Below are positions 1,600 to 6,200 of a stretch of DNA of 6,200 nucleotides, piece after piece. Below the pieces are notes generated by a model. It saw only the letters and a program-made list of their open reading frames with translations. It ran no database searches and was not told where the DNA came from. Location: NCBI GenBank assembly GCA_020428185.1, contig JAGQNH010000060.1, positions 1-6,200 of the forward strand, written 5' to 3'. Made by a program: the position numbers and the translations under genes. The number at the start of each line of letters is the position of its first letter. Within the stretch, counting starts at the first letter, position 1. The stretch is from Candidatus Saccharimonadota bacterium. GTDB taxonomy: Bacteria; Patescibacteriota; Saccharimonadia; Saccharimonadales; Saccharimonadaceae.

Positions 1600-3393
1600 T
1601 CAAGTTGCGTCTTTTGGTACTTCTACCATCTTGAGATCATGAATTTTCTTAGCTAGTTCTGCCACCTTATCCCAAGATGAGTTTTCGGACAATACCGTCA
1701 ATGCATACGCACCGTAGTTGCTATCGTATACGATTGCCGTATCGTTGTGCATTGATTCGCTCTCTCCGATAATATGCGAGACGCTTATGCCCGATGACCC
1801 TGCAGGTATACCGTCATTATTGCGATTAATACGAGCAGTACTCAGGATACTTTGCCCGTCCTGTGAGCGTGCAATCGTATTCTTGTAGATACCGACAAGT
1901 AATTTTTGCAGGTCATTTGCCGATGTGGTCGTATCGTCACCGGCAAATACAGTATTGTCTAGCGGTATTTCCTTTGCGCGAGAATTGATCGTAGCGAAGC
2001 CAAAGAAATTATAAAATCCTCGCCGACATCCCGTATCAAATTCCTGCAACATAAGTTTGAAGCAATCGATGGCCTCAGTGCCATCACTTATATTATCGAC
2101 AGGTCGAGATATCTTATCGTATTTTTGCATCAGATATGTGTACGCCAAATATAATGAATGAATACCGGCAGAATTCATCGATACATCACCTTTGTAGTTT
2201 GCGCTGCGTAGATTTCGCACACCGCTCAGCTCAGTGAATGCCAACCCCCATGTCCCAGGATTGTCTTGGGCATATTGTGCCAAAAGTGCCGAAAATCCAT
2301 TGCTCGTAGGTGTGTACGATCGCTTATAGACCATTGTGGGGCCGACTGGCTTTGTCGCTCCGATTGCTTTGTTGCGTTTCTCGCGTATATACTCCGTGAT
2401 TGTCTTGACGACCTTCGGCATATCCACTTCGCGGCCGCTCTTGCCATCCTTGCGCGATGTCTCGACAAAATCATTTGTACTGACATAACTCACTCCAGGC
2501 TTCTCGATAAGCTTTGCTGCGATTCCTTGATTAAGATATGCTTGTGTTCGATCAAGATTCACACTATATTCCAGGCTTGCCTGCTGATTCGCGCTGTTGT
2601 CGATATTTTTCTCAGGTACCTTGGCAGTGAAGTCTAACCAGCTCATGACGACACGCCCAGGAATCTCATCAGTATTCTTGTCAACCTGAATTGGCATAGG
2701 AGATGCCAAGCGAGCGTTCAATTTCGCTGCAAGATCACGCGCTATGTCATCAGTGACCGGTGCCGCTACTTCATTGATCGCTATGCGGATACTATTCGCT
2801 ACGTCTGGGTCTGGCTCAACTTTTGCCAATGTCTGCTGAAATAGCGTAATGTCACAATTACCTCCACTAAGGGCGGGCTGCAGCTCAAGTTGACTCTCAT
2901 TTAGCTTGAGCGTAGCGTTTTGAGGCTCTATACTGCAATCATTTCCGACCTTGCTTGTTGTGTAGTCCGCAATCTTTTCCTTATCATACACATATTCAAG
3001 TACACCCGGCTTCTGTAGTCCCGGTGCCCAAAAAATCGAGCCAGGAATAAACCGCAAAAACATCGGATAGTTCATCGCATCTATTCGCGCCTCATTATTG
3101 ACTCCGACACCTACATCTTTCATCTTCGGAGATTGGAAGGCTGCTTGATTTTTACCAAAATAAATATCCAATTTCAAACCAGCATACGCATTATCGAGCA
3201 GCTTCGCTGCATCTGCCTTGCGCATACCACCAATATTGAGACCGTCTACATTAACACCAGGTATCAGTCGAGTGCTCGGATAAATAATCTGGAAGATAGT
3301 CTCACCGAGAACCATCACGGAAAAAATAATCAGAAGCAATAGCTTCCAGTGCTGTTTCAGCGAATAATTTAATTCCAAAGAGTTCATGCCCAC
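1600..3393 (-). CDS. Membrane-anchored beta-lactamase/PBP-like pseudoenzyme, paralogue of the adjacent hydrolase
   Basis: Same architecture as the upstream 585-residue protein: a short cytoplasmic N-terminus, one membrane segment (about 18-38), two regions resembling the VanW-associated peptidoglycan-binding-like domain (about 45-250 and 275-340, the latter with GKSGREVD at 317-324), then a class A beta-lactamase-like domain (about 355-597). The catalytic residues are missing: the SxxK position reads GIHS (410-413), SDN reads FDT (452-454), and the KTG-box region reads HIIG (540-543) with no lysine. The frame is uninterrupted and the scaffold blocks are kept (SWLDFTA, NDTAIVY, NSSWDKVAELAKKI), so this looks like a maintained non-catalytic protein, perhaps a glycan-binding or regulatory partner, rather than a decaying gene. 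Start: GTG at 3393-3391 follows the promoter; ATG at 3387-3385 (M3) is an alternative. No SD is visible. The stop is TGA. Confidence 0.88.
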   Translation of the reverse strand: MGMNSLELNYSLKQHWKLLLLIIFSVMVLGETIFQIIYPSTRLIPGVNVDGLNIGGMRKADAAKLLDNAYAGLKLDIYFGKNQAAFQSPKMKDVGVGVNNEARIDAMNYPMFLRFIPGSIFWAPGLQKPGVLEYVYDKEKIADYTTSKVGNDCSIEPQNATLKLNESQLELQPALSGGNCDITLFQQTLAKVEPDPDVANSIRIAINEVAAPVTDDIARDLAAKLNARLASPMPIQVDKNTDEIPGRVVMSWLDFTAKVPEKNIDNSANQQASLEYSVNLDRTQAYLNQGIAAKLIEKPGVSYVSTNDFVETSRKDGKSGREVDMPKVVKTITEYIREKRNKAIGATKPVGPTMVYKRSYTPTSNGFSALLAQYAQDNPGTWGLAFTELSGVRNLRSANYKGDVSMNSAGIHSLYLAYTYLMQKYDKISRPVDNISDGTEAIDCFKLMLQEFDTGCRRGFYNFFGFATINSRAKEIPLDNTVFAGDDTTTSANDLQKLLVGIYKNTIARSQDGQSILSTARINRNNDGIPAGSSGISVSHIIGESESMHNDTAIVYDSNYGAYALTVLSENSSWDKVAELAKKIHDLKMVEVPKDAT

Positions 3394-3397
3394 ATAT

Positions 3398-3426
3398 AGT
3401 ATAGATTATGCTCGTGCTTTTGTGAA
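3398..3426 (-). promoter_or_regulatory. Sigma-70-type promoter of the 597-residue gene, near-leaderless
   Basis: The minus strand shows TTCACA (3426-3421, 5/6 to the -35 consensus), a 17-bp spacer, and TATACT (3403-3398, 5/6 to the -10 consensus). Transcription starting about 7 nt after the -10 would begin near 3391, on top of the GTG start codon and 4-5 nt before the alternative ATG. This leaves essentially no 5' leader. The promoter fills the 45-bp gap between the two paralogues. Confidence 0.65.
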
Positions 3427-3438
3427 TGTCAGCATTGG

Positions 3439-5196
3439 CTAACTATTGCGCCAGCTTTCGATCTGCCTTGTCAATTCTGCAATCGTACCCCAGCTACTGT
3501 TGCCAGTCATCACGACTAGTGCATATGTCCCCGTCTTGCCGTACACGATCGATGCATCATGTAGCAGATTGACCACGCCAGCCACGCCACTTACATGACC
3601 AGGGTACAAAAACCCAACCTTATCAGCCACAGTGCCACTCGTGCCCGACGGGATGCCTTGTCTATAGACATTGCGCTTCATAGCTGCAATAAGTGTATTC
3701 GTACTCGATGTATTCAATAACTGACCCGAACCAAGCAGTCCTAGATATTTCACCAAGTCACCCGGCGTAGATTGGATATAGCTATTCAAAAACGAACTAC
3801 TCGTAAATCCAGCATCCTGAATTTCGTGCGTCAACTGTGCGTAGCCAATTTTTGACAGCAATGCTTTTGCGCATTCATTATCGGACAGCACGATCATATC
3901 GTCGAAACATTTTGCCAGATCTCGACTACCACTAATATTTTTGTCAGTCCAATGCCATGTTTTCGATTCAATCCTCTTGAGCGTACCGTATGCGACATAC
4001 AGCTTATACGTACTCGCCGTCTCAAAAACCTTTGTCTCGTTGTAGCCTGCGTGTCGGTGCTCGCCATCGAGCTCCGCATAACTCACGCCATACACCCCAG
4101 AGTGCGATTCAGCAAAGTTTTTGATCAACGCGGCCAGTCCTGTGTCGGTTGCCGTGTAGCTACGTGAATAGGTCAGCAGTGGCGACGTCGGCGCGACCTT
4201 TGCGACAAGCTCAACATCTTCGCCATTCAACCATTTAGTTATAAGATCAATTGTCCCCTTGGTGTCCAGTGCTTGCCCCGACTGACCATGCTCGCGTTTT
4301 GTCTCGGTGAAGTCGACAGTTGTCACGCGCGTCGTACCTGCAAGTATTGTGACTTTTGGTGCAACCGTCTTCGACAAGAAGTCCGATGCTCGTTTGGTAT
4401 TTACTTTTGCCACGAGTCCGCTGTCTGGTGCCGAAAAATCAATCCAAGACAGTACAGTGTTTTGAGACACTGCGATATCATCGTCGCCCACTTTTATAGA
4501 CATATCCTTTGTCCTGTCCATAATTTCATCTGCAAAATCAGCCGCCTCAGAGTCATGGATCTTGGCCAGCCTCTCATCCATTGCAAATCTAACTGCCGCA
4601 TGCCGCAATGTCGGCTCAGTAGTACGTAGCATGGTGGTAACATCTTCTAATTTACACGAACCTCCATCTAGCGCAGGAATCACATGTAGTGTTCCATCTT
4701 CAAATCTAAGCGATGCATTTTTGGGTGTCACATCACACGATTTTCCAAGCTCCTTACCGACATATTCCTCAAGTTTCTTGTCGTCTCGCACGTATTCGGG
4801 AGACGATTTTGGAAGAACATTTTGCGCCCACCAAAGCGACGTCGGCACCATACGCAACCACAATGGGTATACTTGAGCATCCACCATAGGTTTACTATGT
4901 ATTTCCAAACCAATGTCACTTGGCTTTGGATGCCTATATGACGTTTCATTATCCCCAAAGTACAAATCAATCGATATGTCCTTGTACGTATCGTCTAGCA
5001 ATTTGATAGCTTCATCTCGAGACAACCTACCCACACCAACTCCATCTATCATAGCAAGTGGTGGCAAGGAATCTTTTGGATACGCCAACTGTGCAACAAC
5101 AAGCAACAATACACCTGTACTCAAACCAGATACAAGCAATCGTCGCCAATGCTGGCGAAAATAGTCTCCATGGTGTCTCAGGCGCAGCGGCCTCAT
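3439..5196 (-). CDS. Membrane-anchored extracytoplasmic serine hydrolase, PG-binding-like plus beta-lactamase/DD-peptidase fold
   Basis: A basic N-terminus (RHHGDYFRQHWRR) precedes one membrane segment (about 19-39), placing the rest outside the membrane. Two regions resemble the VanW-associated peptidoglycan-binding-like domain (about 48-255 and 265-325, the latter with HGQSGQALD at 303-311). The C-terminal domain (about 345-585) has the penicilloyl-serine transferase motifs in order: STYK (395-398, Ser395 nucleophile, Lys398), SDN (438-440), and K526-V-G528 in place of KTG. The ExxLN loop of true class A beta-lactamases appears as SSFLN (467-471), so the deacylating Glu is absent. This favours a peptidoglycan peptidase or transferase over an antibiotic-destroying enzyme. 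C154/C181 and C430/C442 are the only cysteines and are shared with the paralogue. It lies 17 nt after the LexA-like gene. ATG start with no SD and a -10 box 7 nt upstream. Exact substrate unknown. Confidence 0.9.
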   Translation of the reverse strand: MRPLRLRHHGDYFRQHWRRLLVSGLSTGVLLLVVAQLAYPKDSLPPLAMIDGVGVGRLSRDEAIKLLDDTYKDISIDLYFGDNETSYRHPKPSDIGLEIHSKPMVDAQVYPLWLRMVPTSLWWAQNVLPKSSPEYVRDDKKLEEYVGKELGKSCDVTPKNASLRFEDGTLHVIPALDGGSCKLEDVTTMLRTTEPTLRHAAVRFAMDERLAKIHDSEAADFADEIMDRTKDMSIKVGDDDIAVSQNTVLSWIDFSAPDSGLVAKVNTKRASDFLSKTVAPKVTILAGTTRVTTVDFTETKREHGQSGQALDTKGTIDLITKWLNGEDVELVAKVAPTSPLLTYSRSYTATDTGLAALIKNFAESHSGVYGVSYAELDGEHRHAGYNETKVFETASTYKLYVAYGTLKRIESKTWHWTDKNISGSRDLAKCFDDMIVLSDNECAKALLSKIGYAQLTHEIQDAGFTSSSFLNSYIQSTPGDLVKYLGLLGSGQLLNTSSTNTLIAAMKRNVYRQGIPSGTSGTVADKVGFLYPGHVSGVAGVVNLLHDASIVYGKTGTYALVVMTGNSSWGTIAELTRQIESWRNS

Positions 5197-5203
5197 ACCA
5201 AGT

Positions 5204-5209
5204 AGTATA
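5204..5209 (-). promoter_or_regulatory. -10 box of the 585-residue hydrolase gene, predicted leaderless
   Basis: The minus strand reads TATACT (5209-5204), then 7 nt, then the ATG at 5196, so the expected transcription start falls on or next to the start codon. The box lies inside CTATACTA, identical to the sequence at the paralogue's promoter. No good -35 is seen at 16-18 bp (TAGAGT at 17 bp, inside the end of the LexA-like gene). An AGGA 14 nt from the ATG is too distant to be a normal SD. Confidence 0.5.
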
Positions 5210-5212
5210 GTC

Positions 5213-5560
5213 CTAACCGCCCAAAAACTCTAATGCTTTTCGAAGTGTATCTAGCTCTTTTTCGTCGGCTTCTGCAGTCTCTCTCTTCAATATCTCCGTA
5301 CGAATCCAGGCCAAGTGTGTATTTTCGTCCGTCTCGGGGCCCTCTGACGCAAGCCGAATAGAGCGAGCGGATTTATCTTTTTTGACCAAATACCCCTTTG
5401 TAATAAGCCCGTCGACATGCACTGCCACGGTCGACACAGATTTGTAGTTCAACAACGTCATGATCTCACGATAGCTTGGTGCATAATTGTGCTCACTGAT
5501 AAAATCAGAGATAAACTGCAGTAGCTCTTGCTGCTTCTTAGTCGCGCGTTCACGAGTCAT
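5213..5560 (-). CDS. LexA-type winged-helix DNA-binding protein lacking the S24 peptidase domain
   Basis: Residues 7-70 align along their whole length with the LexA N-terminal DNA-binding domain: TKKQQELLQFI at the start, APSYREI as the turn into helix 2, SVSTVAVHVDGLITKGYL (41-58) as recognition helix and following strand, and a wing ending in ARSIRL (65-70). Full LexA is about 200 residues and continues with an Ala-Gly cleavage site and a Ser/Lys-dyad peptidase. This protein ends at 115 with a charged, probably helical tail (about 80-113) that might serve for dimerisation. It therefore cannot undergo RecA-stimulated self-cleavage, and its inducing signal would have to differ from SOS. The ATG overlaps the end of the O-antigen ligase-like gene by 11 nt, and only a weak GGGA-type SD is present, so translational coupling is likely. 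A role regulating this envelope cluster is inference only. Confidence 0.85.
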   Translation of the reverse strand: MTRERATKKQQELLQFISDFISEHNYAPSYREIMTLLNYKSVSTVAVHVDGLITKGYLVKKDKSARSIRLASEGPETDENTHLAWIRTEILKRETAEADEKELDTLRKALEFLGG

Positions 5561-6200
5561 GTTTTTTCTTTCCCTTTGTCATTTTTTGAATTCCCAATTC
5601 CATACTCCCTATTCCAACTGCCGCCAATCCCCACCACACTATACTGACAGTATCGTCTGCCCATACCGGCAAAAACAGTCCAATCACCGCAATTCCTAGT
5701 CCACTCGCAAACACACCAAGTGCAAGAAATGATTTCTTGCTAATCCAAAGCCGTTTCATTATTTCGACAAACAACCACACAAACAACAATAACCCCACCC
5801 AGCCCACTTCATGAGCTATGAACAAATATTGATTTTCAATAATCAATGGCTTGTTTCCTGTCAGCGATGCCGAACCAGTACTCCCGATTCCACTACCCAA
5901 TGGCTTAGTAGCTACAAGCGAAACGCCTTTCGCCAGAGAATCAACATGGGCAGTATTCGAATCAATCATGGCGCCCGTCGTAGGACTGTCGTGCAAAATA
6001 ACATTTGCAACAAACTCACTGTCGCGAAGTACATATACACTCCCCGCAACAACCACAACTGCAGCTACCAATAACCATGCTATCTTCTGGCGAATTCTAC
6101 CCGAAAAAGACACATACAATATAGTAGCAATCGCCACCGCCGCACCGATTAATGCACCTCGCGAATAGCTCGCTCCCAGTGCAACCCCTCCGGCAAGCGC
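5550..6200 (-). CDS. O-antigen ligase/polymerase family (Wzy_C) membrane protein, C-terminal part
   Basis: The frame stays open to the right edge, so the gene is 5'-truncated; 216 residues are visible. The GTG at 6137-6135 is internal, because the codons before it encode SYSRGALIGA, the SRG motif (visible residues 13-15) typical of this family. Then come hydrophobic helices (about 16-32 and 39-58), a long presumed extracytoplasmic loop (about 59-121) with HVDSLAKGVSLVATKPLGSGIG, then ENQYLFIAHEVGWVG (122-136) leading into another helix, and two further hydrophobic stretches before a Lys-rich cytoplasmic tail (MTKGKKKHDS). Family members polymerise lipid-linked glycan units or transfer them to an acceptor at the outer face of the membrane. 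Which reaction applies cannot be told here; in a monoderm-like CPR cell, surface glycan polymerisation or protein glycosylation is more plausible than LPS ligation. It ends with TGA inside the start of the LexA-like gene. Confidence 0.85.
   Translation of the reverse strand, partial: ALAGGVALGASYSRGALIGAAVAIATILYVSFSGRIRQKIAWLLVAAVVVVAGSVYVLRDSEFVANVILHDSPTTGAMIDSNTAHVDSLAKGVSLVATKPLGSGIGSTGSASLTGNKPLIIENQYLFIAHEVGWVGLLLFVWLFVEIMKRLWISKKSFLALGVFASGLGIAVIGLFLPVWADDTVSIVWWGLAAVGIGSMELGIQKMTKGKKKHDS

Follow-up and report, generated by a model that had tools for sequence, protein, structure and literature searches.

DipM, a degenerate LytM protein, belongs to a family of wall hydrolases but is itself catalytically dead and instead regulates active wall enzymes (PMC10336132). 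Here we examine a gene pair in a 6,200-nucleotide (nt) stretch of Candidatus Saccharimonadota DNA (contig JAGQNH010000060.1; hereafter the window), in which one protein, A, carries intact serine-hydrolase motifs in a domain resembling class A beta-lactamases, and its neighbor and paralogue, B, has lost all of these motifs. EnvC is a degenerate LytM regulator like DipM, and the fold of such regulators probably differs from the class A beta-lactamase fold. They appear to be the nearest working analogue of B, although the likeness would be one of role only.

Other described proteins resemble A and B in structure. Compared with PBP-A of Thermosynechococcus (TLL2115; PDB 2j7v and 2j9o), both proteins additionally have a membrane helix and an ectodomain of ~320 residues with a PG_binding_4-like stretch, and B, unlike PBP-A, is without catalytic residues. 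Class A beta-lactamases (NF033103; LRA-5, PDB 8eo5-8eo7) share the fold of the C-terminal domains, but A reaches only 35.6 bits against the NCBIfam bla_class_A cut-off of 200 bits, whereas B is not listed by this model and lacks the nucleophile, the lysines, and the Asn. L,D-transpeptidase and VanW proteins carry PG_binding_4, which the ectodomain stretch of A and B resembles; their catalytic domain is probably unrelated. Among the open-access titles listed on pseudoenzymes of this kind, including those on Patescibacteria, none described a dead wall-enzyme regulator in the PBP-A/class A beta-lactamase fold.

An earlier note on this DNA had described the two open reading frames as a tandem pair alignable over nearly their full length, and both lie where it placed them. 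BLASTP aligns residues 3-588 of B with residues 1-583 of A (178 of 601 positions identical, 30%; E 1e-96), and the two proteins are paralogues. Each begins with an N-terminal membrane helix (residues ~16-37 in B). An extended ectodomain, part of which (128-178 in B) resembles PG_binding_4, comes next, followed by a C-terminal domain of class A beta-lactamase fold (~361-591 in B). Both pass the 22-bit cut-off of the Pfam Beta-lactamase2 model (PF13354), with A at 80.4 bits and B at 45.0 bits, the match of B beginning only at profile position 74. For PG_binding_4 (PF12229; cut-off 22.1 bits), A scores 23.3 bits. Some B proteins of relatives (L043-L045, L040, L072, and L073) also carry a Pro/Gln-rich N-terminal extension of ~100 residues before the membrane helix, which is likely cytosolic.

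When structures of full-length A and full-length B were predicted, the structural matches shown for each fell on the catalytic domain, and class A S70G mutants, some of them ligand-bound, were among these matches. Structure prediction had been proposed earlier as a check on the pair, and the models place a class A fold in the C-terminal domain of both proteins, so that B is predicted to keep this fold. Because SxxK, SxN, and KxG motifs are present in a class A fold, we predict that A is a PBP-A-like D,D-peptidase. The omega-loop Glu166 motif of class A beta-lactamases, ExxLN, is not seen in A: inspection of 17 A sequences by eye showed no conserved Glu in the interval from SDN to the TTAGDL block. 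The A protein of the window has an insertion after KVGFL (residues ~530-542) that is missing in the 16 other aligned A proteins and is modeled with low confidence.

In A, the catalytic motifs are STYK at residue 395, SDN at 438, and DKVG at 525. The motif positions given earlier for both proteins, including GIHS, FDT, and HIIG in B (Table 1), are correct, as is the claim that B has lost the nucleophile, both lysines, and the Asn, a loss that its relatives share. When 394 genomes of this family, a subset of a larger group, were searched with a B profile, 20 proved to contain B. Seventeen copies are full length with uninterrupted frames, one is split over two contigs (G366), and two are fragments (G370 and G297) that were assigned to B by best match and stop short of the motifs. 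Gly occupies the nucleophile position in all 18 genomes whose B reaches it. Orthologues with intact motifs or frameshifts were sought as cases that would contradict an established loss; the 18 copies that reach the nucleophile and the 17 full-length frames include none.

Phylogenetic analysis by a quick method used 82 rows, with motif columns removed and six fragment rows left out beforehand. The 17 full-length B proteins form one clade with no active row within it (Shimodaira-Hasegawa-like approximate likelihood ratio test, SH-aLRT, 100), and this clade carries an insertion of 15-19 residues where the 64 active rows have 7-10. Among 294 genomes of the order outside the family, the best match to the window's B (E 3e-45) is an active protein (L032).

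A wider view comes from a protein database, in which scoring for B was confined to the 7,997 candidates with the most words in common. The 120 clusters listed, of 145 passing, all have Gly in place of the nucleophile and keep all four cysteines; they are of similar length, and every one of them is without the Lys that ends SxxK, the Asn of SDN, and the Lys of KTG. For A, by comparison, all 120 clusters listed, of 156 passing, retain Ser, Lys, SDN, and [DN]KVG, with Ser replacing one cysteine in a single cluster. PF12229 appears in the precomputed annotation of many of the listed B clusters.

The catalytic motifs are thus absent throughout the B clade. A pseudoenzyme is recognized by just such clade-wide motif loss combined with a retained frame and predicted fold, and from these sequences we judge B to be an ancient, conserved pseudoenzyme. 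The suggestion that B has a selected noncatalytic role gains support from the Gly found in 18 of 18 genomes and in every listed cluster, together with the 17 uninterrupted frames.

Another dead, Gly-bearing copy occurs in genome G305 (L133:1818-3620). Its motif positions read GVGR, NDV, and NATG, it lacks the B insertion, and no ligase was seen alongside. The tree calls for two changes to account for this copy and the B clade, yet the approximately unbiased (AU) test does not reject a single clade (p 0.575), and the tree constrained to one clade even scored 6.03 higher. This copy may have lost its motifs independently or may be a distant relative within the B clade.

Patterns of substitution indicate which parts of B are kept. 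Across eight pairs of whole B genes, the proportion of nonsynonymous differences (pN) is 0.12-0.25 and that of synonymous differences (pS) is 0.71-0.85. Synonymous change is thus in excess. The ratio of nonsynonymous to synonymous substitution rates (dN/dS), proposed earlier as a check on B, was set aside because nearly every pair is saturated at synonymous sites, and pN and pS are given in its place. More telling is a comparison of A and B between the same 13 genomes (78 pairs). In the N-terminal half B is the more conserved protein (mean identity 0.49, against 0.37 in A; higher in 76 pairs), whereas in the catalytic domain A is (0.64, against 0.42 in B; higher in all 78). Because of their common history the pairs are not separate tests, and the counts describe a consistent pattern only. 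A region-by-region comparison of nine tandem genomes (36 pairs) places the greatest excess of B over A at residues 200-262 (0.59 vs. 0.32) and at the cytosolic and transmembrane part (0.52 vs. 0.27). The greatest deficits lie at the KTG and SxxK regions (0.43 vs. 0.73 for each), which are the least conserved parts of B. The pattern indicates that conservation in B rests chiefly with its membrane helix and ectodomain and less with the former active-site groove.

In relatives, the usual gene order is GT4 and sugar transferase genes, divergent from a run of ligase, helix-turn-helix (HTH) gene, A, and B. The window has Wzy_C ligase, HTH, A, B, and an AAA ATPase as five co-directional main genes on the minus strand. 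The A/B locus also carries surface-glycan genes. Tandem A-B pairs occur in 10 genomes (G000, G152, G199, G269, G315, G318, G355, G362, G366, and G375), and 15 of the 20 B genomes hold an intact A at one place or another; both counts favor an action of B on or with A. Many other family genomes have A alone at the locus. In the protein database, 28 longest-contig sizes are common to the listed A (119) and B (120) clusters, one of them (2,169) too small for both genes; this coincidence of sizes, which is all it is, points to A and B being on the same contigs in many metagenomes.

The earlier note also credited B with a good promoter. A consensus scan of the stretch is insufficient for this claim, finding 12 sites versus 9.4 expected, but a similar element recurs in relatives. 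By eye, 11 of 13 tandem-type loci, window included, have GTGACA or TTCACA as a -35-like hexamer with a AAAGCATAAGC-like spacer upstream of B, and TATANT lies 4-20 nt before the B start in nine of 13 tandem-type loci and none of six others (19 examined). In the window, TATACT lies 10 nt before ATG 3387. Thus, B probably has its own promoter, as judged from these recurring motifs.

A 16-base element from the A-B gap of relatives was also searched in eight genomes with up to two mismatches. The two exact copies lie in an A-B gap, as do three of the five with one mismatch. A genome-wide regulon for this element is not supported, because the 17 matches (five in the A-B gap and 12 elsewhere) compare with 14 for a backwards control. 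As a separate observation, TATANT falls within 4-20 nt of the start (e.g., 5204-5209 and 3398-3403) for 15 of 19 A genes and nine of 19 B genes, compared with 1.6% of random positions, and both transcripts may be nearly leaderless. Where the HTH gene lies directly before B (L011, L068, and L073), an inverted-repeat-like TTATnATAAGCATAA-type element was noticed by eye just ahead of the B start in some genomes, and this could possibly be an operator.

Our leading proposal, to which we give about as much credence as doubt, is that B is a noncatalytic, membrane-anchored, wall-binding partner of its paralogue A. After duplication, catalysis would have stayed with A, and binding or assembly would have become concentrated in the membrane helix and ectodomain of B. 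The latter protein may then position, activate, or restrain A, either adjoining or supplied from another locus, at the site where the neighboring ligase would attach surface polysaccharide. Extended to the Saccharibacteria pair as a whole, we tentatively suggest that a duplicated D,D-peptidase split its jobs, with the dead copy perhaps becoming the conserved subunit that binds membrane and wall and links the trimming of peptidoglycan to the attachment of surface polysaccharide.

Several observations weigh against this proposal. Eight of the 20 B genomes have no A between the HTH gene and B (G093, G164, G208, and G356, which are one genus, and G311, G337, G297, and G370), and these loci speak against a strict cis pair and call for caution about a partnership. 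In these eight, B follows the ligase, with an HTH gene between in seven and none recognized in G297; in G208, G356, G297, and G370 the contig ends just past or within B, and the far side of B is unseen. Five have A at another locus (G093, G164, G356, G311, and G297). In G208, whose B is intact, A was found only in pieces (L119:4341-5784), which may reflect sequencing error. The search for A came up empty in G337 (96% complete, 8% contaminated) and also in G134, G360, and G370, where B is near a contig end. B may therefore not need A. Moreover, the window's B scores 20.6 bits against PF12229, below the cut-off, and the 16-base element of relatives was not found within two mismatches in the window's own A-B gap, which is too diverged. 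The shared history of the compared pairs and the His/Asp pattern considered below also count on this side. A check proposed earlier, looking for the same two-gene order, gives tandem pairs in 10 genomes and conserved motif loss, alongside the eight loci where A is out of place.

One alternative, unlikely in our estimate but deserving serious weight, is that B works independently of A, serving the neighboring polysaccharide machinery (Wzy_C ligase, sugar transferase, and GT4) as a scaffold that binds wall or glycan, and lies beside A only through its origin by duplication. The retention of B by the ligase where A is missing from its spot, the failure to find A in G337, and the higher conservation of B than A at the membrane helix and ectodomain all fit such a scaffold. 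However, most B genomes do hold an intact A somewhere, and B keeps its predicted class A fold and cysteines, seemingly beyond the needs of a pure glycan binder.

A re-purposed active or metal/ligand site formed in the old catalytic domain by H412, D453, and H540 is improbable. Among the 120 listed B clusters, position 412 is H in 96 and E in 19, position 453 is D in 112, and position 540 is H in 116, with the H-D-H combination in 86. In contrast, position 412 is E and position 540 mostly V in a deep subclade (six rows, g7 and g161), A likewise has D where B has D453, and conservation in B is lowest in the SxxK and KTG regions. In class A numbering these three positions presumably correspond to about 72, 131, and 233, which are probably not the groove residues.

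Also quite improbable is a role for B as a receptor or sensor that binds muropeptide or beta-lactam without cutting, in the manner of class A S70G mutants. Such a role would agree with the invariant Gly of the listed clusters and with the ligand-bound S70G structures among the matches, but the SxxK Lys, the SDN Asn, and the KTG Lys are gone as well, and these regions are the most variable. The decoy receptor suggested in the earlier note is disfavored because the old active-site regions are the least conserved parts of B. Finally, that B is a decaying duplicate heading for a pseudogene is scarcely credible and was rejected: the loss of every motif would fit decay, but this loss is common to the whole clade, and the intact frames, similar lengths, Gly in all listed clusters, and synonymous excess argue otherwise.

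The window makes up contig C64 in a genome of 700 kb rated 76% complete, and its features are collected in Table 1. The frame reported earlier for B stands, but its 597-residue length probably does not: translation probably starts at ATG 3387, because the database copy of this B has 595 residues and several relatives start at the same Met.

Table 1. Features of the A/B locus in the window (aa, amino acids)
Feature	Coordinates	Strand	Details
B, predicted pseudoenzyme paralogue	1600..3387	-	595 aa from ATG 3387; 597 aa from GTG 3393
A, STYK/SDN/DKVG intact	3439..5196	-	585 aa; membrane helix, PG_binding_4-like ectodomain, PBP-A/class-A-fold domain
B GIHS, residues 410-413, at the S-x-x-K place (Gly at nucleophile position)	2155..2166	-	
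B FDT, residues 452-454, at the SDN place	2032..2040	-	
B HIIG, residues 540-543, at the DKVG place	1765..1776	-	
Promoter-like element of B	3398..3432	-	TTCACA-17-TATACT or CTGACA-16-CATAAT; ACAAAAGCAnnAGC spacer
LexA_DNA_bind-only HTH protein	5213..5560	-	115 aa; conserved gene of A/B locus
Wzy_C/O-antigen-ligase-type membrane protein, cut by window end	5550..6200	-	Conserved gene of A/B locus

The HTH protein consists of a LexA-type DNA-binding domain only, with no LexA peptidase match, and, counting the window, 16 of the 21 loci that were compared first have a relative of it; it is a candidate regulator of the A/B locus. Downstream of B (226-1515) is a ClpB-D2-like AAA ATPase with a C-terminal membrane helix seen by eye, and in G362 (L102) an AAA ATPase 38% identical to it likewise follows B. 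The ATPase of the window matches PDC-M37B (E 7.5e-27) and DolB (9.3e-15) in PADLOC. Filing A and B themselves as defense-system proteins was rejected, as neither of them matched anything in PADLOC at E 0.01.

Among LytM proteins, catalytically dead regulators of wall enzymes are already known (PMC10336132). Another report states that the few cultivated Saccharibacteria grow on other bacteria, and that genetics in a cultivated relative found one extracellular polysaccharide (EPS) synthesis gene essential and a growth deficit for two adjacent ones (PMC10633639). A genome survey of candidate phyla counts many class A-like genes (PMC8651080). Where source names are given for the listed A and B clusters, they read 'beta-lactamase class A', 'serine hydrolase', or hypothetical. 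Caution is warranted against counting B-type genes as resistance, since some bear the first of these names, yet none of the 120 listed carries the residues of the known mechanism. B is likely to be neither a beta-lactamase nor a gene in decay but a noncutting cell-wall partner or scaffold, and the A/B pair offers a testable handle on how Saccharibacteria build their envelope.

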